Source: a virus | IMG/VR virus record: IMGVR_UViG_3300021963_000282 | Coordinates: 1-39,524 of that record | Length of the DNA: 39,524 nucleotides | Direction: 5' to 3' (one strand) | In this document: positions 1 to 39,524 of the stretch, piece by piece | Position numbering within the stretch: position 1 is the stretch's first letter | Layout: every line of letters starts with the position of its first letter | Position numbers and translations under genes: made by a program | Notes under the pieces: generated by a model | What the model was told of the DNA's origin: nothing | The model's input: only the letters and a program-made list of their open reading frames with translations | The model's database searches: none

Positions 1-56
1 ACGTTGGCAGCTTCGCTGGGTAGGTCAACTGATGGAAGGTCAAGGTCAAGGGCATT

Positions 57-172
57 CCGCCGTTGGCGGCTAACGCCTCTCCATCGCCACCTTGCAGGTG
101 TCGAAGTTCGTTGTTCTCATTCGTGATGGGTCACGTCTGTGGTTTGTGGTGTCTCTGACCTAAAGGTCTGAG
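57..172. repeat. Cluster of four inverted repeats
   Basis: Four small hairpins lie within 116 bases: CCGCC/GGCGG with a 3-nt loop (57-69), CACCT/AGGTG with a 3-nt loop (88-100), CGTGA/TCACG with a 4-nt loop (122-135), and a 20-nt imperfect palindrome (153-172: CTC, T·T mismatch, GACCT, AA, AGGTC, mismatch, GAG). None is followed by a T-run, so they are not terminators. Possible roles are protein-binding sites of an origin or packaging region. The pairing is seen directly; the role is inference. Confidence 0.5.
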
Positions 173-429
173 CCAATACCCTTCCGTTGGCGGCCCTACA
201 CCGTACCAACTCCCGAACCTTAACGATGTTCACTCGTTTTCATTATTTAACTACCTACCCACGGCTTACTGGCTGGCATCCAATTCGACTGTTGGCTTGA
301 CTCCACGCATGGGATCCGAACCCCCTTTCAGGTCACAATGTCCCTACGCTCCTGGTTAGACAGGCTTACTACGGGCGAGTTCCGCTTGGCGTGTCATCCC
401 GACAGGCTCAAGCTTCGTAAGTTCGGTGA

Positions 430-444
430 CATGACAATATCATG
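430..444. repeat. Small inverted repeat upstream of the first gene
   Basis: CATGA and TCATG flank a 5-nt loop about 60 bases before the first start codon. It lies where a promoter for the first operon would be expected, so it could be an operator. A nearby ATGACA could act as a -35 element, but no well-spaced -10 follows, so no promoter is called. Confidence 0.35.
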
Positions 445-503
445 GGGGTGTATGGTGATAGTGTCCGTTTTTGTAACAGGACAAAGTTTATTTGGGAGAA
501 GAT

Positions 504-788: not shown

Positions 789-1339
789 CGATGCGTAAAG
801 CGTTCGATGACGCAGATGACATCATTGAAGGTATCAAAGGTCGCCGTCCGACCCAGGCGAAGTCCACTCGTGTGGTCGAAAACATGGATGAGATCGTCGT
901 TATTTCTAAAGGCGAGGCTCAACAAGCCAAAAGAGCGTCCCGTGCAGCCGACATTGAAGAAGTTCGGGTCAAAAAGGTGCTGGAAAAGGAAGAACGACGC
1001 AAGTCAGCCGAACAATTGAAGGTTTTGGGGCAAGATCTGCTTGCTTCAGGGGTCGCATCACGAGAAATTCTCCCCAAATTGGCGCAATCCATCATTGTTG
1101 ACCTCGGTTTACGCCTAGTTAGCAACGAATGGGAGATCAAGTCCGCCGAAGAAGCCACTAAGGTGGCGAAGATTTGGTATGACATCCTCAGATTGGAGTC
1201 AGGTCAAGCAACAACGATCAACGAGAACCGCACCGGGAACCCCGAAGACCGATTGTCACGCTTAGAGGAGTTAAGATCAGAAGCGAAAGCTCGTGTCGAA
1301 GCAGGCTTGCGAGCAATAGGGGATGGAAATAGCGGATGA
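785..1339 (+). CDS. Putative small terminase subunit (by position)
   Basis: The product has 184 residues, starting at the ATG that overlaps the previous stop. The N-terminal half is highly charged and Lys/Arg/Glu-rich (roughly residues 50-90), consistent with a long helix or coiled coil. The C-terminal half is helical with a Trp-containing segment (SNEWEIKSAEEATKVAKIW). Size, helical charge pattern and position two genes before TerL fit a small terminase subunit, which binds the packaging site on phage DNA and hands it to TerL. No family-specific motif is visible, so the call rests mainly on context. A head-assembly or regulatory role is the alternative. Confidence 0.45.
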   Translation: MTMRKAFDDADDIIEGIKGRRPTQAKSTRVVENMDEIVVISKGEAQQAKRASRAADIEEVRVKKVLEKEERRKSAEQLKVLGQDLLASGVASREILPKLAQSIIVDLGLRLVSNEWEIKSAEEATKVAKIWYDILRLESGQATTINENRTGNPEDRLSRLEELRSEAKARVEAGLRAIGDGNSG

Positions 1340-2079
1340 CAACTAAACCTGACCGTTTATTGACACAGAACAGCGAGTTACGCAAAGTTGGTGTGTGGAA
1401 CTGGACACTCCCAGCGCACACTCTGAAACTTTCGGACGGCTCCTGGTTCAACACTTGCCCGAACGCTGGTGCTTGTGGCCGTGTTTGCTACGCCAAAATG
1501 GGAACATACCTGTTCTCTAACGTGCGCCGTCGCCACCTACAAAACCTTGAGTATGTACTAGGTAATGACAGTTGGTGGCAAGAAATGGCTATTGAACTAG
1601 ACCATAAACGGTTTCGACCCACAGGTAAGCCACACGACCTTCCGCATGACCAAAACGATCAATGGTTACACCAATGGGCCTTGAGTGGTGGACGAGCTGT
1701 CCGAATCCACGATGCAGGCGACTTCTTTAGCCCTAAGTATCTGAATGATTGGGTAGATGTTGCATACGAACACGACGACATTCTTTTCTACGCATACACC
1801 AAAGAAGTAGAGATGTTTAAGAAAGCTGACTACATACCAAAAAATTTTCGTATTGCGTTCTCCTACGGTGGCAAACAAGACCACATGATTGACCGGGAAC
1901 AAGATCGCCACGCCGATGTCTTCCCCACCAAAGAAGCACTAGAAGCAGCGGGATACTTTGACCAGTCAGACAATGACCTACTGGCAGTCGTCGCACCAAG
2001 CAACAAGATCGGAATCGTGGCAAACAACCTGCCAGTTGCTAACAAGCGGTTTGCGGGTCGCACCATGAGCGAACTATGA
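1336..2079 (+). CDS. GP88-like cysteine-motif protein (copy A)
   Basis: The product has 247 residues and resembles the phage GP88 family (mycobacteriophage gene product 88), whose biochemical function is unknown to me. Visible hallmarks are a Cys triad followed by Tyr-Ala (C41, C47, C51-Y-A), a central R-x-H-x-x-GDFFS segment (HDAGDFFS at 125-132) and a YTK segment at 154-156. The three Cys could hold a metal or Fe-S cluster in a radical-SAM-like barrel; that is inference. The second Cys cluster seen near the C-terminus of the other copy (37105-38100) is absent here. It overlaps its upstream neighbour by 4 nt and terL by 4 nt, an unusual place for this family in the middle of the packaging operon. 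Confidence 0.7.
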   Translation: MTTKPDRLLTQNSELRKVGVWNWTLPAHTLKLSDGSWFNTCPNAGACGRVCYAKMGTYLFSNVRRRHLQNLEYVLGNDSWWQEMAIELDHKRFRPTGKPHDLPHDQNDQWLHQWALSGGRAVRIHDAGDFFSPKYLNDWVDVAYEHDDILFYAYTKEVEMFKKADYIPKNFRIAFSYGGKQDHMIDREQDRHADVFPTKEALEAAGYFDQSDNDLLAVVAPSNKIGIVANNLPVANKRFAGRTMSEL

Positions 2080-32921: not shown

Positions 32922-33196
32922 TGGAAAATCCACACGCCGAACCAAACAAACAGCCACAACCACAAATCCATGATCGCCCCAAGATCAGACCACGCCGACC
33001 CGACTTCGGTATGGGCGACCCAGTAGTGCGCGAATCACAACACGACATGGTCGAGTACCTGACCGAGGTAACCCGTAACATGAAACGAATCATGGACGAA
33101 CATACGATACTCATGAAGCAGTTACTGTCTGTGATGACATCAATCCGTGACGCGCAACAGCAAGACCGCTGGAACCAGCAAAGGTACGGGCGATGA
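32921..33196 (+). CDS. Hypothetical protein between methyltransferase genes
   Basis: The product has 91 residues. The N-terminal third is Pro/Gln/Arg-rich and probably disordered (IHDRPKIRPRRPDFGMGD). The rest is one long helix (DMVEYLTEVTRNMKRIMDEH; LMKQLLSVMTSIRDAQQ). It overlaps both methyltransferase genes by 1-4 nt. A bridging or specificity role is possible but unsupported. Confidence 0.68.
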   Translation: MENPHAEPNKQPQPQIHDRPKIRPRRPDFGMGDPVVRESQHDMVEYLTEVTRNMKRIMDEHTILMKQLLSVMTSIRDAQQQDRWNQQRYGR

Positions 33197-34734
33197 AATT
33201 GCAATATGGCGAACTCTTTGCAGGTGTGGGGGGTTTCGGCACGGGCATGGAGCAAGCAGGCTACGAGCCTGTATTCCAGGTCGAATGGGATAAGAACTGC
33301 CAAAAGATCCTGCACCACCATTGGCCGACCGTTCCCAAATGGGGCGATGTATGCGATGTCAACGGTGCAGACCTACCACCATGCGACGTGCTGATCTTTG
33401 GATCGCCATGTCAAGACCTATCAGTAGCAGGCAAGCGAGCTGGACTCCAAGACGGAGACAGATCATCAATGTTCTTTGAAGCAGTACGAATCATCAAGGA
33501 GATGAGAGATGCAACTAACTCTATTTACCCAAGAGCCACCATATGGGAAAACGTCCCCGGAGCCTTGTCAAGCAACAAAGGAGCCGACTTCGGTGTCGTC
33601 CTCTCAAGTTTGGCTGACATCGGGGCGATTACACAAGAGTACGCCGTCTTGGACGCGCAATACTTCGGAGTGCCTCAGCGCAGACGTCGAATTTTTCTCG
33701 TATCTATCTTCTGTCCTGCAGCCAGCGAAAGATGTCCCGACCCGCTACTACCTCTCATCCAAGGCAGCCGAGGGGATTTTGCGAAGGGCAGAAAGGCGCG
33801 GAAAGACGCTACCCGATTTGCTTCGACAAGCATTGATCCAGGTGATGGAAAAGAAATAGTTTATACATCGTCATCATTTGGTGACTTCAGTGTCATTGGT
33901 TTCGGCACTCTCAGATCAACCGGTGGTGACTTAGGTGGTGGTTCAGAAACACTCGTTACTGCTCAACTTGACCAAGAAGAATCAGAAACTGGAGAAACTT
34001 TTCGTATGCTCGCCTTTGGTCATTATGTCCAGGACGACATCGCGTCAACAATAAAAATGTGCGACCACAAAGATGCAAGAGATCTTGTTGTTCCCGTCGC
34101 ATACTCAATCCGTGAAGATGCCAAAGCCAACACGTTCAGCGCAACCGAGACAGACACCGCCCTATGCCTCAACGGATTAGTGCCATCAACACAGTCACAC
34201 CACGCGCAAATCTTCATTGCCGAACCCATTGTCTACGATGGCTACAACCAAAAGCTTGACGACAGCGGAATTCACCGTTCGTTGCGTATCGGTCGAGATA
34301 GTAGCGACTTCGTGGCACAGCCAATCATCTTTGAGAATTCATACCGTGACGGGCCGCGAGTAGGCGACGATATTTGTCATACATTGCCCGCAAAAATGGG
34401 TTTGGGTGGTGGCAACACCCCGATGCTGGCAGAAGTTACCTACTCATTTGATACCCAGTTTGGTAGCAATGCGGCCGTCTTTGAAGACACATCGCCAACA
34501 CTTAAAAGCAGTCAACAAGCACCTTCGGTAGCACCGCCGGGATTAGCAGTACGTCGACTAACCCCGTTGGAATGCGAGCGTTTGATGGGATGGCCCGACG
34601 ACCACACCCGCTGGACGGCCGACGGCAAAGAGCAAGCCGATACCAACCGTTACAAGCAATGCGGTAATGGTGTAGCGTCGCCCGTAGCACGCTGGGTAGG
34701 CGAACAACTACGACCCGTACTGGAGACGGAATGA
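33193..34734 (+). CDS. dcm: C5-cytosine DNA methyltransferase
   Basis: The product has 513 residues. The family motifs are complete: SAM loop FAGVGGFGTG (9-18), catalytic PCQ (SPCQDLS, C73), ENV (WENVPG, 119-124), the QRRRR segment (162-166), and C-terminal RRLTPLECERLMGWPDDH plus the closing CGNGVASPVARWVGEQL. It transfers methyl groups to cytosine C5, probably protecting phage DNA. The central region between about residues 175 and 440 is the target-recognition part and is longer than usual. Bases 33509-33859 also encode a second protein in another frame (see next entry), so residues about 106-222 are under double constraint. Confidence 0.94.
   Translation: MKLQYGELFAGVGGFGTGMEQAGYEPVFQVEWDKNCQKILHHHWPTVPKWGDVCDVNGADLPPCDVLIFGSPCQDLSVAGKRAGLQDGDRSSMFFEAVRIIKEMRDATNSIYPRATIWENVPGALSSNKGADFGVVLSSLADIGAITQEYAVLDAQYFGVPQRRRRIFLVSIFCPAASERCPDPLLPLIQGSRGDFAKGRKARKDATRFASTSIDPGDGKEIVYTSSSFGDFSVIGFGTLRSTGGDLGGGSETLVTAQLDQEESETGETFRMLAFGHYVQDDIASTIKMCDHKDARDLVVPVAYSIREDAKANTFSATETDTALCLNGLVPSTQSHHAQIFIAEPIVYDGYNQKLDDSGIHRSLRIGRDSSDFVAQPIIFENSYRDGPRVGDDICHTLPAKMGLGGGNTPMLAEVTYSFDTQFGSNAAVFEDTSPTLKSSQQAPSVAPPGLAVRRLTPLECERLMGWPDDHTRWTADGKEQADTNRYKQCGNGVASPVARWVGEQLRPVLETE
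33509..33859 (+). CDS. Gene nested within the cytosine methyltransferase, alternate frame
   Basis: The product has 116 residues, read in a different frame from the methyltransferase. A near-perfect ribosome site (AAGGAG, 33496-33501) lies seven bases before its ATG. The protein reads like a known phage family: GKTSPEPC early on, a TRNTSECLSADVE segment, and a strongly patterned end, PTRYYLSSKAAEGILRRAER, RGKTLPDLLRQAL. I recall proteins with this YxLSxKAxxGILRRAxxRGK ending beside or overlapping C5-methyltransferase genes in other phages. Both frames here carry recognisable patterns, so this is likely real dual coding. The basic helix at the end could bind DNA. Function is unknown. Confidence 0.75.
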   Translation: MQLTLFTQEPPYGKTSPEPCQATKEPTSVSSSQVWLTSGRLHKSTPSWTRNTSECLSADVEFFSYLSSVLQPAKDVPTRYYLSSKAAEGILRRAERRGKTLPDLLRQALIQVMEKK

Positions 34735-34856
34735 ACCAACTATCACCTGAGGAGCAGCGTTTCGTGGATAAAACAGTTGAAGTCATTTACTTCGCAGGAT
34801 TGGCAGCCACTTGTGTCGCAATCCTGTGGTGGATCATCGGCAAGATTACGAGATGA
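34731..34856 (+). CDS. 41-residue single-pass membrane protein
   Basis: The frame starts at an ATG overlapping the methyltransferase stop and ends at TGA 34854-34856, overlapping the next start. The product has a polar helix (MNQLSPEEQRFVDKTVEVIY) followed by one hydrophobic helix (FAGLAATCVAILWWIIG) and KITR. Tight coupling on both sides supports it. Function is unknown; small membrane proteins of early operons often act in superinfection exclusion or host membrane control. Confidence 0.62.
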   Translation: MNQLSPEEQRFVDKTVEVIYFAGLAATCVAILWWIIGKITR

Positions 34857-35584
34857 GCAGAACCGTCGTATGGTTCTCGGCTGGTGCTGCATCCGCAATC
34901 GCCGCCAAACTAACCATTGCCCAAAATCCGTCTAACCTAGTCATCGCATACACCGACCCAGGATCAGAACACCCTGACAACAAACGATTCTTAGACGACT
35001 GCGAACAATGGTTCGGGCATCCAATAGTCCGCTTAAAATCCAAAAAATATGCTGACACCTGGGCAGTATTTGAACATGGATATCTAGTCTCCCCATATGG
35101 AGCAATGTGTACAGCAGAACTTAAAAAGAAAGTTCGTCGAGACTTCCAATTGCCCGACGACATCCATGTATTTGGCTACACCAGCGAAGAACAACACCGG
35201 GCAGACCGCTTCAGAGAACAAAACATAGAAGTAGATCTACGCACACCGCTTATTGAATACGGCCTTACCAAAGACGACTGCCTCGCAATGATAGAAAGAG
35301 CAGGCATTGAACTACCTGCCATGTACAAACTTGGCTACCGCAACAACAACTGCATTGGATGCGTTAAGGGCGGCATGGGTTACTGGAATAAAATTCGCAA
35401 AGATTTCCCCGACACTTTTGACCGCATGGCTCAAGTGGAACGCAAACTCAACATATCCATCCTTCGATCTGAATCAAAATCCGTATTTTTAGATGAACTT
35501 GACCCTGAACGAGGCAACCACTCCGACGAACCATCATTTGAATGTTCATTACTTTGCACAATCGCTGAAGAAGATATTAAATAA
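34853..35584 (+). CDS. PAPS-reductase-family (PP-loop) protein
   Basis: The product has 243 residues from ATG 34853, overlapping the previous stop. The nucleotide-binding PP-loop is at the N-terminus (VVWFSAGAASAIAAKL; SAGAAS instead of the usual SGGKDS). Later come FGYTSEEQHRADRFRE and the Cys pair in NNNCIGCVKGGMGYWNKI. Phage proteins of this family are widespread. They are thought to activate substrates by adenylation for sulphur or nucleotide chemistry, and their targets are mostly unknown. Next to two DNA methyltransferases, a base or backbone modification role is an attractive inference. It is the last rightward gene and its stop overlaps that of the convergent recombinase gene by 8 bp. 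Confidence 0.8.
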   Translation: MSRTVVWFSAGAASAIAAKLTIAQNPSNLVIAYTDPGSEHPDNKRFLDDCEQWFGHPIVRLKSKKYADTWAVFEHGYLVSPYGAMCTAELKKKVRRDFQLPDDIHVFGYTSEEQHRADRFREQNIEVDLRTPLIEYGLTKDDCLAMIERAGIELPAMYKLGYRNNNCIGCVKGGMGYWNKIRKDFPDTFDRMAQVERKLNISILRSESKSVFLDELDPERGNHSDEPSFECSLLCTIAEEDIK

Positions 35585-36473
35585 CCGAGTCAGGTGCTGA
35601 ACCCGACCCAAACCGATCCCCATCAGGTTCGACCACAATCTGAGCTATCACATCAGCCTGGCTAACCAGCGACACAGGATTGAGTAGGCGCAAAGTCTGC
35701 CGAACATACCGATCATTCGTATGTCCAAGCCACTTCGCAATGACCGGGACAGGAACACCACGCTGAAACTGACGCTGGACAGCCCACCGACGCATATCCT
35801 GCACCGTAAGCCGACGACCAACAGCACCCGAAGCGACATCATTGATCGTCTCAGTCGCGTGCTTAGAACCAAACGTCCCACCAAGTGTCGTAGTCGCAGC
35901 GAACACCGCAGTCAGACCTAAAGTCAACACCTCAAGACGACCGTCAACCGGGATCTCACGCCTGTTACCTCGACGAGAACGCACCGTGACTAGCGTCTTC
36001 CCTTCCCATGTCCGAACATCCGTCTTACGAATCCGGAGAGCTTCAGCGCAGTCACATCCACCCCAGGCGACCATCGCAGCAAGCCATTCCCACCGAGGCC
36101 CACGCTTAGAGAACGCTGACATGACCAGCACCATCTCATCATCAGACGGCACAGTTGAGCTATCAAGCACGATGACACGCTTAGGCATCTTCACCGAATG
36201 CAAACCGTGAACCTTCAAAACACCAGCTTCGACCAGCGCATCCATCCATTTAGCGACCCCACAAACACGCGAAGCAACCGACGTTGACGTGTACTGCGAA
36301 GCCATCCAATCCACAAACAGTTGAGCGTTCACCGCCGTGCAATCCAAAGGATGAATGTCCACCAAAGCACACCACCGCTGCCAGGTGACAATGTCCTTCT
36401 TGTACCGCTTACGAGTATGAATTGAGGCGTAACCCCCCAAGAAATGAGCCGTAACAGAGCGAACAGAAGCCAT
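35577..36473 (-). CDS. Tyrosine-recombinase-fold protein with degenerate active site
   Basis: The product has 298 residues from ATG 36473. It has a SAM-like N-terminal core-binding domain (YASIHTRKRYKKDIVTWQRW) and a C-terminal catalytic-type domain that aligns with phage integrases and XerC/D: WGGCDCAEALRIRKTD, DMRRWAVQRQFQRGVPVPVI, KWLGHTNDRYVRQTL. However, the first catalytic Arg position is Asp (D141), the His of the HxxR box is Gln (Q225, R228 kept), and no Tyr lies about nine residues after LGH; the nearest Tyr is at +5 (Y256). It may be an inactive, DNA-binding derivative or a divergent enzyme. Convergent overlap with the preceding gene is 8 bp. Confidence 0.8.
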   Translation of the reverse strand: MASVRSVTAHFLGGYASIHTRKRYKKDIVTWQRWCALVDIHPLDCTAVNAQLFVDWMASQYTSTSVASRVCGVAKWMDALVEAGVLKVHGLHSVKMPKRVIVLDSSTVPSDDEMVLVMSAFSKRGPRWEWLAAMVAWGGCDCAEALRIRKTDVRTWEGKTLVTVRSRRGNRREIPVDGRLEVLTLGLTAVFAATTTLGGTFGSKHATETINDVASGAVGRRLTVQDMRRWAVQRQFQRGVPVPVIAKWLGHTNDRYVRQTLRLLNPVSLVSQADVIAQIVVEPDGDRFGSGSAPDSVI

Positions 36474-36490
36474 AAACAATGTTTACCACA

Positions 36491-36697
36491 CTAATTCGGA
36501 ATTATTCGCCTCAAAAGCACGCTGACCATCCACAATTGCGAAAATATTTTGCGATCACGCACGCTGTCTACCCACACCCAGCGCAGTTTGGGTTCTGCCG
36601 TTCGACCGCCTGTGGCCAGCTCGCCATGCCGGGCGAGGTATTTGGCTGCAAAACCCATTAAACGCCCGCACCTATGACACCCCCCGCATATCGTCAT
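36491..36697 (-). CDS. Possible small Cys-rich protein upstream of the recombinase
   Basis: The 68-residue leftward frame ends 17 bases before the recombinase start, consistent with a two-gene operon. It opens with MTICGGCHRCGRLMGFAAKY, containing a C-x2-C-x2-C knot, followed by basic and Trp-rich sequence (KLRWVWVDSVRDRK). The C-rich opening and position favour it over the opposing plus-strand frame. No promoter or strong ribosome site is evident, so the call is tentative. Confidence 0.42.
   Translation of the reverse strand: MTICGGCHRCGRLMGFAAKYLARHGELATGGRTAEPKLRWVWVDSVRDRKIFSQLWMVSVLLRRIIPN
36534..36554. repeat. AT-rich palindrome flanked by TTGCGA
   Basis: AAAATATTTT (36541-36550) is a perfect palindrome overlapped by two direct copies of TTGCGA (36536-36541 and 36549-36554). 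It lies 60-80 bases upstream of the recombinase start. It could be an operator or part of an attachment site, but it also falls inside the possible small gene at 36491-36697. Confidence 0.35.
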
Positions 36698-36714
36698 GAC
36701 GAAATAGACCTAAC

Positions 36715-36741
36715 AAAAAACCCGCACCATATCGGCACGGG
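36715..36741 (-). terminator. Terminator of the leftward right-arm operon
   Basis: Read leftward, CCCGTGCC (36741-36734), a GATAT loop and GGTGCGGG (36728-36721) form an 8-bp RNA stem with two G·U pairs, followed by six T (36720-36715). It would end transcripts from the 37-39 kb cassette before the recombinase. Rightward it has mismatches where the G·U pairs were, though TTTT follows at 36743-36746, so some bidirectional effect is possible. Confidence 0.8.
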
Positions 36742-36768
36742 CTTTTCGTTCTCGGTATGTCCGCGTCC

Positions 36769-37053
36769 CTATTCGATGACACCCCGCGCACCTTGGGCGT
36801 ATGCATGGATTACCGCGACCAACTCGCGCGCCGACTCGGCAGCCGGGCGATCAAGAACAAACCAACGACCGCCCCCGCCCCCAATCTTCTCAAGCCACAA
36901 CGACCAACACCCGCGCGCCGTAGAGCCATATCGCCAACGGTAACCCGCAACCAACGGAAGCCCCCGCGCAACAATCGGCAAACAACCCGACCCGCACCGA
37001 TGCCCCAGCGGATCAAGCCCGACACATGGCAACCGATCAACCCGACTAGTCAC
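36769..37053 (-). CDS. Probable small protein at the end of the leftward operon
   Basis: The 94-residue leftward frame starts at a GTG preceded by a G-rich stretch, 51 bases after the GP88-like gene, and stops 28 bases before the terminator. It has three Cys, aromatic strands (LPLVAGYRWRYG), a Gly run (KIGGGGGRWFVL) and a helical end (AAESARELVAVIHAYAQ). The sequence is protein-like, but high CG content keeps several frames open, so confidence is moderate. The opposing plus-strand frames are Pro/Arg-rich and look like shadows. Confidence 0.48.
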   Translation of the reverse strand: MTSRVDRLPCVGLDPLGHRCGSGCLPIVARGLPLVAGYRWRYGSTARGCWSLWLEKIGGGGGRWFVLDRPAAESARELVAVIHAYAQGARGVIE

Positions 37054-37104
37054 GGCACACCACCACGAGCGCGCACATCCAACACACCCAACAAGTAAAC
37101 ACGA

Positions 37105-38100
37105 TCACAACGCCACCAACCCGCGACGAACCCGAACCGCAACCGCAGAACCCAACCGCCCCGCAGACTGTCCGCGATTCTTGCCACCATGAAGGAGAAA
37201 GGTAACCGAGCGATCAGGCGCACCAGGCAAACACAAACCGCAAGCAACACACGCCCCAACACCCGCCGAACCACGCCGAACTGCCGACCGACGCGCCCGA
37301 CCAGCCAAGTCTAACCCGACGACATGAGCCGACACGCCGAACGAATCGCGCGCCCACTTGCCCGACACCGGACAAACAACCCCAGGCAAAACGGGAGCAA
37401 CCGAAACCGCACGCGCCCACAACGCGACCGCGTGCCGTTCATCGTCCGCAAGCATGGCAAGCGGTAAACCCAACCGCGCACCCGCGCGAGCCATCTTCAC
37501 GACATTGTCAGAGTCTGCCGACAGCATCACCCGAAGATTCTCGGGAACAGGAAACAGGCTCTTAACCTTGACCGCGTCGCGCGTGTAGATCCAATGATCT
37601 ACCGACGAAGTAGCAACAACCGCCGAACGAATCGCGCGCCCGTACCAAGTCGCAAAAATATCCCCGCCCGAATGCCAACGAAAACACGGCGACGCAACAC
37701 CGCGCGCGCGCTGTGCCATCTCGGAATGACGAACGCAGGCAACCAACGCCAACACAACCGCCGACTGACCCCCGCAGGCTTTCAAGTGTTCAAGGTTCGC
37801 CAGGTTCACCGACGCACCCCGAGCAAAAGCACTGTAACGATTCTCCAACCCTGCAGCGTAGCAATCAATACACGCCGACGTAGTCGCGTCGCATGACCCG
37901 CCCGTATCCAATGGGCCAACGGGCAACGGGAACGCATTAGGGACTAACGCCTTAGCCGAACCCTTGTCGTTTATCTCCACCGCTGGCGATGTCTTCGCGT
38001 CGTTATGAAGCATGAACCGCAACACGTCGCCACACTTGCACGACACAAAAACACCCTGCCCACCTGGCGCACTATGAACGGGTAACCGATCGCGTCTCAT
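37105..38100 (-). CDS. GP88-like cysteine-motif protein (copy B)
   Basis: The product has 331 residues, starting at an ATG overlapping the upstream stop. It has a CKC pair near the N-terminus (21-23), then C70, C77, C80-Y-A (CDATTSACIDCYA), the central RWHSGGDIF (HSGGD at 143-147), a WIYTRDAV segment (YTR at 172-174), C243, and a C-terminal triad C284, C287, C290 (CVACGLCL) followed by a VTFLLHGG strand. This is the full GP88-type pattern, more complete than copy A (1336-2079). The Cys sets could bind Fe-S or zinc. Copies A and B are too diverged to be a recent duplication. The gene is CG-rich compared with most of the window. Confidence 0.75.
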   Translation of the reverse strand: MRRDRLPVHSAPGGQGVFVSCKCGDVLRFMLHNDAKTSPAVEINDKGSAKALVPNAFPLPVGPLDTGGSCDATTSACIDCYAAGLENRYSAFARGASVNLANLEHLKACGGQSAVVLALVACVRHSEMAQRARGVASPCFRWHSGGDIFATWYGRAIRSAVVATSSVDHWIYTRDAVKVKSLFPVPENLRVMLSADSDNVVKMARAGARLGLPLAMLADDERHAVALWARAVSVAPVLPGVVCPVSGKWARDSFGVSAHVVGLDLAGRARRSAVRRGSAGVGACVACGLCLPGAPDRSVTFLLHGGKNRGQSAGRLGSAVAVRVRRGLVAL

Positions 38101-38603
38101 GACTCACCCCCCGCAAAATGAACCCGCAACAGCTCAGCGAACTCTTCAACCGTACCCAACAACCAAGAGATCTCGGAACTAGCTTGCCACCCCTGACCCG
38201 CGACCAACTCGCGCGCAATCTTAACGCGTGAATCAATCCAAACAAGCCGATCGGAGTCACTCGCAGCAGGCGCACTATTTACCCTAAACGACGCGCCGAT
38301 ATTGGTCATGCCATGATCACCCCACTCCAAGAAGATATCGCGGTAACTAATCTCGGAATCTTCAAGATCCCATAGCGACCACTCACAGTCAAGATCTTCG
38401 TCGTCGTCCGGTACTAACTCAGCGTCAACCGAGCAGACATACAACCGCCCCCACTCTGCGCCCTGGTTATTCATGAGGTCAGTATCTAAACCGTCAATGA
38501 TCCACTTGGTGACTTCAGCGACGGCTTCATACATGAACTCAAAGCCGTAATAATCAGAGTCCTCTGATGAGTCATACACCGCGTAATAAATCTGAGGCTT
38601 CAT
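38097..38603 (-). CDS. Acidic hypothetical protein, leftward cassette
   Basis: The product has 168 residues from the ATG at 38603, which overlaps the upstream stop (TGATG) and follows a G-rich ribosome site. It is very acidic, with long Asp/Glu runs (VPDDDEDLDCEWSLWDLED). The N-terminus alternates aromatics and acids (PQIYYAVYDSSEDSDYYGFE). Charge mimicry of DNA is a known strategy of anti-restriction and anti-defence proteins, but this is only a composition argument. The last 40 residues are helical. I do not recognise the family. Confidence 0.72.
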   Translation of the reverse strand: MKPQIYYAVYDSSEDSDYYGFEFMYEAVAEVTKWIIDGLDTDLMNNQGAEWGRLYVCSVDAELVPDDDEDLDCEWSLWDLEDSEISYRDIFLEWGDHGMTNIGASFRVNSAPAASDSDRLVWIDSRVKIARELVAGQGWQASSEISWLLGTVEEFAELLRVHFAGGES

Positions 38604-39064
38604 CACTTCACCCCCCGACCAACACCCGAACACTCTGAAAGATCCATAGCCCAAGAACCTTGCTCTAACGCTTCACTATCGCTACCAATCATGAAGGCTT
38701 CACCAATAACGACAGCGTCACGCGATAACCGGACATCTTCTAGATAATCGCCAGCATTAACGATCTCGTCAACTTCGCCCCAAATAAAACCACCCGAGAC
38801 CCCGTAATTGCGACCCTTAACCCTAAACCATGCGAAGTCGCCAACGCTCACAACATCGCCAGGCGTAAACGCGTCACCAGCATTGTCTAAAACATCTACA
38901 CACACTTCGCGCCAGTCATTGACAGACCAGGAACAGATCAGGTTGTAAATAGCGGGAGCGACCGCCATACATTCAGACTCACTACCAACAAACAGCGGAG
39001 CGACTAACTCGAATGTGTCAGTCTCAGAGACATAACGCCTCTGCCAGATCACTTGACTATTCAT
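38603..39064 (-). CDS. Acidic hypothetical protein, first gene of leftward cassette
   Basis: The product has 153 residues, with AAGGGG well placed before the ATG. It is acidic and beta-rich (QRRYVSETDTFELVAPLFVG; VVSVGDFAWFRVKGRNYG), with helices near the middle (APAIYNLICSWSVNDW) and few basic residues. The gene lies behind the leftward promoter and its overlapping palindrome, so it is the first to be expressed from this cassette. Function is unknown. Being small, acidic and first in an accessory operon, it is a candidate inhibitor of a host system (inference). Confidence 0.72.
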   Translation of the reverse strand: MNSQVIWQRRYVSETDTFELVAPLFVGSESECMAVAPAIYNLICSWSVNDWREVCVDVLDNAGDAFTPGDVVSVGDFAWFRVKGRNYGVSGGFIWGEVDEIVNAGDYLEDVRLSRDAVVIGEAFMIGSDSEALEQGSWAMDLSECSGVGRGVK

Positions 39065-39094
39065 TTGAACCCCTTACAAGTTGACCGCCAAAGC

Positions 39095-39118
39095 GGGAGA
39101 GTCCGCACAGACTCACCC
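39095..39118. promoter_or_regulatory. Palindrome at the leftward start site
   Basis: GGG, A, GAGTC, 6-nt loop, GACTC, A, CCC form a 24-base palindrome with one mismatch per arm. Taking the -10 at 39123-39128, it covers about +1 to +22 of the leftward transcript. It could be a repressor operator or a 5' mRNA hairpin upstream of the ribosome site. Confidence 0.55.
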
Positions 39119-39122
39119 CAAC

Positions 39123-39151
39123 ATTGAACCACATCAGAACCGACGAGTCAA
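39123..39151 (-). promoter_or_regulatory. Leftward promoter of the right-arm cassette
   Basis: Read leftward, TTGACT (39151-39146), a 17-bp spacer and TTCAAT (39128-39123) precede the start codon at 39064 by about 58 bases. The boxes match five and four of six consensus bases. It is the only good promoter in the region and reads into the four leftward genes. Confidence 0.62.
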
Positions 39152-39524
39152 GTGTTAACCCCCCGAATATATGAAGTCACTTATCCGGGCTACCTGGACG
39201 GAAACTATACGAAGCAAGACACGCACCAACCACCGCCCATTGTCGGCAAGCACGCTGACCGCATCGCGACAGCCCGACACCAACGAGACGCAGTCTCGGC
39301 GGTAGCACCCCGTGAAGGATGGCAACCCGCTGACCGTCCGAGTACCCCACCCCATGCCCTGCCCTAGACCGTGCGCCTAGACGGCAGGACTAGACCGTTA
39401 GTATGTATGCCCCACCACCTACCTCGTTGCCGTGCCCTGGGTCGACCGCCCCCCACCCACGCCCATTGAGGGGTCCCCACCCCCCCCTATCAATACACTC
39501 TCCCGTATTTTTTGACCTTTTTCA
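39152..39524. other. Right-end noncoding region
   Basis: No convincing gene is present. Short open frames exist on both strands up to about 39367 but lack ribosome sites and recognisable sequence. The stretch holds the three iterons at 39364-39402, a C-rich tract (about 39446-39487) and ends with a T-rich segment containing TTGACCTT. If the genome circularises or is permuted, this joins the noncoding first 503 bases. Confidence 0.5.
39364..39402. repeat. Three 13-bp iterons
   Basis: CTAGAC begins at 39364, 39377 and 39390, giving three tandem units of exactly 13 bases: CTAGACCGTGCGC, CTAGACGGCAGGA, CTAGACCGTTAGT. Seven to nine positions are shared between units. Regular near-helical-turn spacing suggests a protein-binding array such as a replication-initiator or repressor site. 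Confidence 0.6.

Follow-up and report, generated by a model that had tools for sequence, protein, structure and literature searches.

The IMG/VR virus record IMGVR_UViG_3300021963_000282 (39,524 bases, analysed in full and called the window here) carries four leftward genes, acid1, acid2, GP88L and p94, flanked by a host-type promoter and an intrinsic terminator (Table 1). Two acidic proteins are encoded first, followed by a protein of the GP88 family (GP88L) and a small basic protein (p94). The reading frames overlap by 1 nucleotide (nt) between acid1 and acid2 (TGATG) and by 4 nt between acid2 and GP88L (ATGA), and p94 starts after a 51-nt gap behind GP88L. An earlier note, made from the sequence alone, had described a promoter, a palindrome at the start site, a trio of overlapping genes and a terminator, all of which were confirmed by the sequence and its relatives; the probable fourth small gene that it had suspected is p94, conserved in all relatives. 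Its view of a self-contained cassette on the opposite strand held for this anatomy, but the next leftward gene, INT, lies on the same strand. Promoter, leader, acid1-acid2-GP88L-p94 and terminator are, as far as can be read from the DNA, one leftward operon.

Table 1. Positions of the operon components and of other elements in the window
Feature	Position	Strand	Description
Host-type promoter (predicted)	39123..39151	-	-35 TTGACT (39151-39146), 17-nt spacer, -10 TTCAAT (39128-39123)
Leader RNA hairpin 1	39099..39114	-	GAGTCT-GTGC-GGACTC, 5' end of the predicted transcript
Leader RNA hairpin 2	39085..39096	-	CCGC-TTTG-GCGG, then Shine-Dalgarno-like AAGGGG
acid1	38603..39064	-	153 amino acids, isoelectric point (pI) 4.07, net charge -15; variable slot
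acid2	38097..38603	-	168 amino acids, pI ~4.05, net charge -26; variable slot
GP88L	37105..38100	-	331 amino acids, GP88 family (PF17338)
p94	36769..37053	-	Basic protein of 94 amino acids, conserved CLP..R.LP motif; core gene
Intrinsic terminator	36712..36750	-	Ends the operon
INT	35577..36479	-	Tyrosine-recombinase-like (phrog_1 integrase, E=8.6e-13); neighbour of the operon, outside it
11-mer CTGGGTGTGGG	36571-36581	-	Non-coding, upstream of INT
PAPS-reductase-family gene	34853-35584	+	Beside INT
C5 methyltransferase gene	33193-34734
Second GP88-family gene	1336-2079	+	Just before the terminase gene; CX5CX3C spacing
Stretch between leftward and rightward operons	39160-39524 and 1-490		~0.85 kb, mostly non-coding
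CTAGAC-like repeated motifs	near 39365-39400

The operon was compared with about 25 related contigs, gathered by searches with GP88L, the terminase and p94. The promoter block GGTTAAYRCTTGA, present as a single exact copy in the window, was unchanged in 13/13 close relatives, and an invariant GGTTAAC block extended upstream of the -35 element to about position 39160; the earlier claim of an independently promoted leftward operon is borne out. Within the 13 sequences, 98.7% of the cells in the six pairs of hairpin 1 were paired, and three pairs were altered on both sides. Hairpin 2 was weaker (11 of 13 relatives could form it, with 89% of cells paired) and was followed by an AGGGG-like stretch in every relative aligned. 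For the two hairpins jointly, none of 500 shuffles matched the observed covariation score; the covariation vanished when the partner was slid by 1-3 columns, and RNAalifold recovered the same stem for hairpin 1. These compensatory changes, together with the shuffle test, ruled out a chance palindrome and identified the start-site palindrome as a hairpin in the leader RNA. At the other end of the operon, the predicted terminator retained a strong hairpin and T-run in all close relatives, and distant relatives had a strong hairpin in the corresponding position.

Comparison of the genes showed, at the level of predicted proteins, that the slot between the promoter and GP88L is hypervariable, acidic and exchanged between close relatives. 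Two contigs whose terminase is 97% identical to that of the window (L001 and L002) had no homologue of acid1 or acid2, and their slot genes were unrelated. Relatives of acid1 occurred in two contigs only (59% and 44% identity); a scan of viral contigs with acid1 alone returned nothing, and one with the acid1 alignment returned only the two contigs already found. The N-terminal domain of acid2 and its C-terminal EFAELLRVHFAG part were separate small proteins in relatives (L003, L025), and acid2 therefore resembles two small proteins fused into one; its low-confidence structural model (predicted local distance difference test [pLDDT], 67) had a beta-beta-alpha-beta-beta domain and a helical hairpin. 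Automatic counting of slot open reading frames (ORFs; a ribosome-binding-site-like start, at least 60 amino acids, downstream of the promoter; families defined by phmmer) gave 53 ORFs in 20 regions, falling into 21 families, although a small number of these, among them most of the four that are basic, are probably spurious. A pI below 4.7 was found for 42 of the 53 slot ORFs versus 7 of the 39 forward genes of the window, and each genome carried a payload of one to five small acidic proteins. Slot genes belonged to no known family in Pfam or PHROGs. No match to acid1 was present in Pfam, PHROGs, NCBIfam, PADLOC or annotated phages, and acid2 had none in PADLOC and no relative in annotated phages at E < 0.1 (one match at E 0.2 was disregarded), in keeping with the earlier statement that no gene matches a known system. 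Homologues with structural or replication functions, which that note had named as evidence against its view, were not found either; a structural or replication role for the cassette was rejected, since it has no family match and is not conserved as such, as was a known defence system, for which PADLOC returned nothing relevant.

Two further slot families were observed among the relatives. A zinc-ribbon-like family (CxxC...VPWDVMGD.R.F.FVC..C) lay directly upstream of GP88L in most of them (L003, L005, L011, L021, L025, L048, L049 and others) and was missing from the window. A recurrent acidic family, marked by the motif W...TGG[GN]C and without a Pfam match, occurred in L002 (8909-9262), L003 (8160-8516), L020, L025, L048 and L057.

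Such turnover could be neutral clutter, if the slot were a permissive site for short ORFs that are free to drift and to recombine with no selected role; the spread of 53 ORFs over 21 families, with some ORFs small and probably spurious, would fit this. However, the promoter and leader hairpins were strictly kept across all differing payloads, slot ORFs were coupled by overlaps and started with ribosome-binding sites, their acidity was consistent, and families recurred between genomes, so that we consider drift without function highly improbable. The operon is real and selected, with one half fixed and the other hypervariable.

The fixed half consists of GP88L and p94. In every relative covering its place, p94 was kept (38-97% identity), and it had no family match in Pfam, PHROGs or NCBIfam and none in annotated phages; a PADLOC hit to SAVED-PDDEXK (E 0.023) aligned only one stretch of the model and was taken as chance. 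Both p94 and INT were found in all contigs covering them, and the order and strand of GP88L-p94-INT were constant in 22 of the 24 contigs reaching INT, with INT down to 50% identity. The two exceptions, L137 (contig of L057) and L138, represent one lineage in which other ORFs replace GP88L. The ratio of non-synonymous to synonymous divergence (dN/dS) of GP88L (0.19, versus 0.03 for the terminase [TerL] and 0.08 for INT) indicated purifying selection. Its synonymous divergence (dS) of 0.93 was far above that of the terminase (0.24; INT, 0.33), which argues for allele exchange at the GP88L locus. GP88L therefore appears to have undergone more exchange or diversification than the genes beside it, along a gradient that climbs towards the slot.

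Base composition was uneven along the operon. The tetranucleotides CGCG and GCGC occurred 38 times in GP88L, versus 14.9 +/- 4.3 expected from the codon use of the forward genes, 13 versus 3.9 times in p94, 12 versus 3.5 in acid2, and 4 versus 2.5 in acid1; in the first three genes, the excess was beyond what amino acids and usual phage codons would give. The GC fraction was raised solely in GP88L (0.60) and p94 (0.63), with the acidic genes at 0.50-0.51. The CG-rich base use described in the earlier note is thus real for GP88L, p94 and acid2 but uneven, being slight in acid1, with a raised GC fraction in just two of the genes, GP88L and p94. All close relatives shared the CGCG bias of GP88L, and this, along with the constant gene order, marks GP88L-p94 as an old and fixed half. 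The promoter-proximal genes are accessory and exchanged, and the idea of a recently gained module fails for the CG-rich GP88L-p94 pair; recent gain of the whole cassette was ruled out by the presence of that pair at the same place in distant relatives. A search for the same gene order and a fixed core order as counter-evidence, both proposed in that note, yielded a divided answer: GP88L-p94, followed by INT, behaves as fixed content, whereas the genes near the promoter differ from relative to relative.

GP88L matched PF17338 with an E-value of 2.3e-17 (64.1 bits versus a gathering cut-off of 24.4), a match that recurred when the whole genome was searched, and relatives of 30-42% identity were carried by 103 annotated phage records, mostly Streptomyces phages; no known plasmid relatives of GP88L were found. 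Ten cysteines were invariant in a 17-row alignment, among them those of C70-X6-C77-X2-C80-Y-A and of a CX2CX2C near the C-terminus. The three-cysteine motif ending in CYA, a GD motif and a YT[RK] motif were invariant in the 17 homologues and aligned with the second GP88 protein of the window. The AlphaFold2 model (pLDDT, 82.5; predicted template modelling score [pTM], 0.84) had strands alternating with helices, strand 1 being followed by the cysteine triad (Cys70/77/80) and strand 2 by S-x-GD. GP88L had no sequence match in the PDB. When the PDB chains ranked highest by Foldseek were re-aligned with VIA-align, the first 26 rows were all radical S-adenosylmethionine (SAM) enzymes, and unrelated barrels began at Z 5.9. 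The best match was spore photoproduct lyase (SPL; Z 7.8; root mean square deviation, 4.0; 191 residues; model residues 20-313), followed, among others, by QueE (Z 6.7), viperin (6.6), lipoyl synthase (6.5) and pyruvate formate-lyase (PFL) activase (6.3). The spacing CX6CX2C differs from the canonical CX3CX2C of radical SAM enzymes, which lowers the claim to membership without excluding the mechanism; variant spacings of the cluster motif occur within the radical SAM superfamily. We consider that GP88L is probably a radical-SAM-like iron-sulphur enzyme.

Among viral structure predictions, the matches to GP88L were GP88 and Gp37/Gp68 proteins. Two comparisons at the sequence level were in line with the fold. 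The family models of GP88 and DUF5131 hit the same bacterial proteins over identical coordinates, and comparison of the GP88L and DUF5131 profiles (E=3e-4; hhalign probability, 38.6%) aligned the three cysteines, GD and YT[RK], although a search of the window gave no match of GP88L to PF07505 itself. A search of one library of papers found none on GP88, Gp37/Gp68 or DUF5131.

The structural matches also bear on two alternative functions. In the first, GP88L would be an SPL-like enzyme that repairs ultraviolet damage or modifies phage DNA or host RNA, with the acidic proteins as passengers. The top match to SPL, followed by QueE, an enzyme of the deazaguanine pathway, is compatible with this, and the genome also encodes a second GP88, a C5 methyltransferase and a PAPS-reductase-family protein. 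Nevertheless, enzymes with radical SAM folds catalyse many kinds of reaction, and matches that lie within 1 Z of each other count as tied; with the PAPS-reductase gene confined to one related contig (L005) and the second GP88 to some, there is no fixed pathway; and the turnover of the acidic slot is left unexplained, making modification or repair a doubtful account of the operon. In the second, the phage would carry a module for superinfection exclusion that defends against rival phages. A separate promoter and hypervariable small genes fit such a role, as does the occurrence of viperin, an antiviral radical SAM enzyme, among the matches; yet PADLOC found nothing, GP88L has no sequence similarity to viperins, the viperin match is tied with many radical SAM enzymes, and there was no sign of stable host residence. 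We regard superinfection exclusion as improbable.

Beyond the terminator lies INT. An alignment with a solved XerC-like recombinase showed that its HxxRH motif reads QxxRR and that the position after LGH is not tyrosine in relatives, and our reading of the alignment placed Asp/Glu at the box I arginine. INT is thus apparently a tyrosine recombinase without catalytic activity, and its strong conservation under purifying selection in all relatives (dN/dS 0.08) would perhaps suit a DNA-binding regulator or replication factor. These features are relevant to a third alternative, in which cassette and INT would form a lysogeny region whose genes, active in the prophage, would encode a repressor or lysogenic-conversion functions. 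The cassette does adjoin a tyrosine-recombinase-like gene on the same strand and is oriented opposite to the lytic genes; however, the apparent loss of the catalytic histidine, the nucleophilic tyrosine and the box I arginine weakens this reading, family searches found no repressor-like helix-turn-helix (HTH) protein in the operon, and a survey of 397 genomes from the order of the one metagenome-assembled genome carrying GP88L turned it up just once, on a phage-like contig of 5.2 kb. A lysogeny region is accordingly judged unlikely.

Several observations concern the surroundings of INT and GP88L. The 11-mer upstream of INT was identical in 15/15 aligned relatives, including the most distant, and nearly every relative had a single copy per contig, the L057/L137 contig lacking an exact one; it is a possible operator, origin or att-like site. 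The PAPS-reductase-family gene is variable, since only one related contig (L005) has one, and a pairing of it with GP88L as obligate partners was rejected because that contig alone carries both. The second GP88-family gene was present in some close relatives only.

The window is probably a nearly complete, circularly permuted genome, since related IMG/VR contigs span the junction between its end and its start. Its genes include a P22/SU10-type portal, an SU10-type adaptor, a terminase, a major head protein, a RecT-like protein and a WhiB-like regulator. By the rule applied in PMC6802176, WhiB is a pointer to an actinobacterial host, and the source is taken to be a freshwater actinobacterial podovirus-like phage. 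One relative sits in an Acidimicrobiales genome bin, which is weak evidence for the host because phage contigs can be misbinned. The window contained no tRNA that could serve as an att site and no Rfam match to a structured RNA. The mostly non-coding stretch between the leftward and rightward operons, with its repeated CTAGAC-like motifs, is a candidate origin or control region.

Taken together, the fixed and variable halves suggest an early, host-transcribed operon that joins a constant enzyme module to a rotating acidic payload for counter-defence or takeover, a reading that we hold about evenly balanced between right and wrong. Host RNA polymerase would transcribe the sigma-70-type promoter soon after DNA entry, the 5' leader hairpins may stabilise or regulate the mRNA, and the overlapping stop and start codons may couple translation and keep the products together. 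Judging from their turnover, charge and position, the acidic proteins could have host factors or defence proteins as binding partners, perhaps through DNA mimicry, and might be swapped as host targets change; targets that differ between hosts would explain the turnover of slot genes. GP88L, given its predicted fold, would carry out constant SAM-dependent chemistry on nucleic acid, protein or nucleotide. Anti-defence by the acidic proteins, as the earlier note had proposed, is possible, as is DNA mimicry by acid2 on charge alone. A number of points weigh against this interpretation. A Z of 7.8 is below the level that would settle the fold of GP88L alone, and its Foldseek E-values in the PDB were weak (best, 0.03). 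The acid2 model gave no interpretable fold match, its list being filled by the helical hairpin alone, and the slot proteins matched no known anti-defence family. The early timing derives only from the type of promoter, and small acidic proteins are frequent in phage early regions without an anti-defence role. Furthermore, the absence of GP88L from the L137/L138 lineage implies that it is dispensable. A bolder version, in which GP88 and DUF5131 form a widespread, virus-associated radical-SAM-like branch and the operon is a new counter-defence or takeover locus pairing radical chemistry (e.g., modification of nucleic acid or host factors) with exchangeable acidic adaptors or inhibitors, is speculative and probably goes too far. 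Variable accessory phage operons are a kind already known, and the enzymatic assignment proposed for the common GP88 family is new and plausible.

If the proposed reading is correct, the conserved promoter, leader and GP88L-p94 could serve as a marker for harvesting dozens of small acidic phage proteins, in parallel to the use of aca genes for finding anti-CRISPRs, in a phage group that is among the commonest yet least cultured of fresh waters. It would also provide testable radical SAM chemistry for GP88, a family carried by many phages of Streptomyces as well as by some viruses of mycobacteria and archaea.

Compared with radical SAM enzymes such as SPL, GP88L would, in its predicted model, share a partial (beta/alpha)6 TIM barrel with the cysteine triad after strand 1, and it differs in the motif spacing given above. 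Within the GP88 family, it combines CX6CX2C with an extra C-terminal region holding four invariant cysteines, whereas the second GP88 has CX5CX3C. The DUF5131/Gp37/Gp68 family (PF07505) has the CX6CX2CYA motif, and its downstream motifs align, but the C-terminal half of GP88L is unlike it, consistent with a distant relationship only. Phage DNA-mimic anti-restriction proteins such as T7 Ocr are small, very acidic, promoter-proximal and of early type. The products of acid1 and acid2 are likewise small, strongly negative (-15 in 153 and -26 in 168 amino acids) and promoter-proximal, although neither had a Pfam or PADLOC match to DNA mimics (Ocr, ArdA) and the low-confidence model of acid2 gave no clear fold match. 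The closest parallel in layout is with anti-CRISPR (Acr) loci, in which a fixed gene lies beside shuffled clusters of two to four small genes, related phages have entirely different sets, and Acr pI spans approximately 4 to 10 (PMC7648647). Our operon differs in that family searches found no aca-type HTH regulator, a defining feature of such loci, in acid1, acid2, GP88L or p94, its payload is consistently acidic, and its fixed part comprises p94 and the predicted enzyme GP88L. With one or more fixed genes next to shuffled small genes without homologues, in a compact operon that differs between related phages, it resembles an acr-aca locus in layout and may work like one, without being classed as one.

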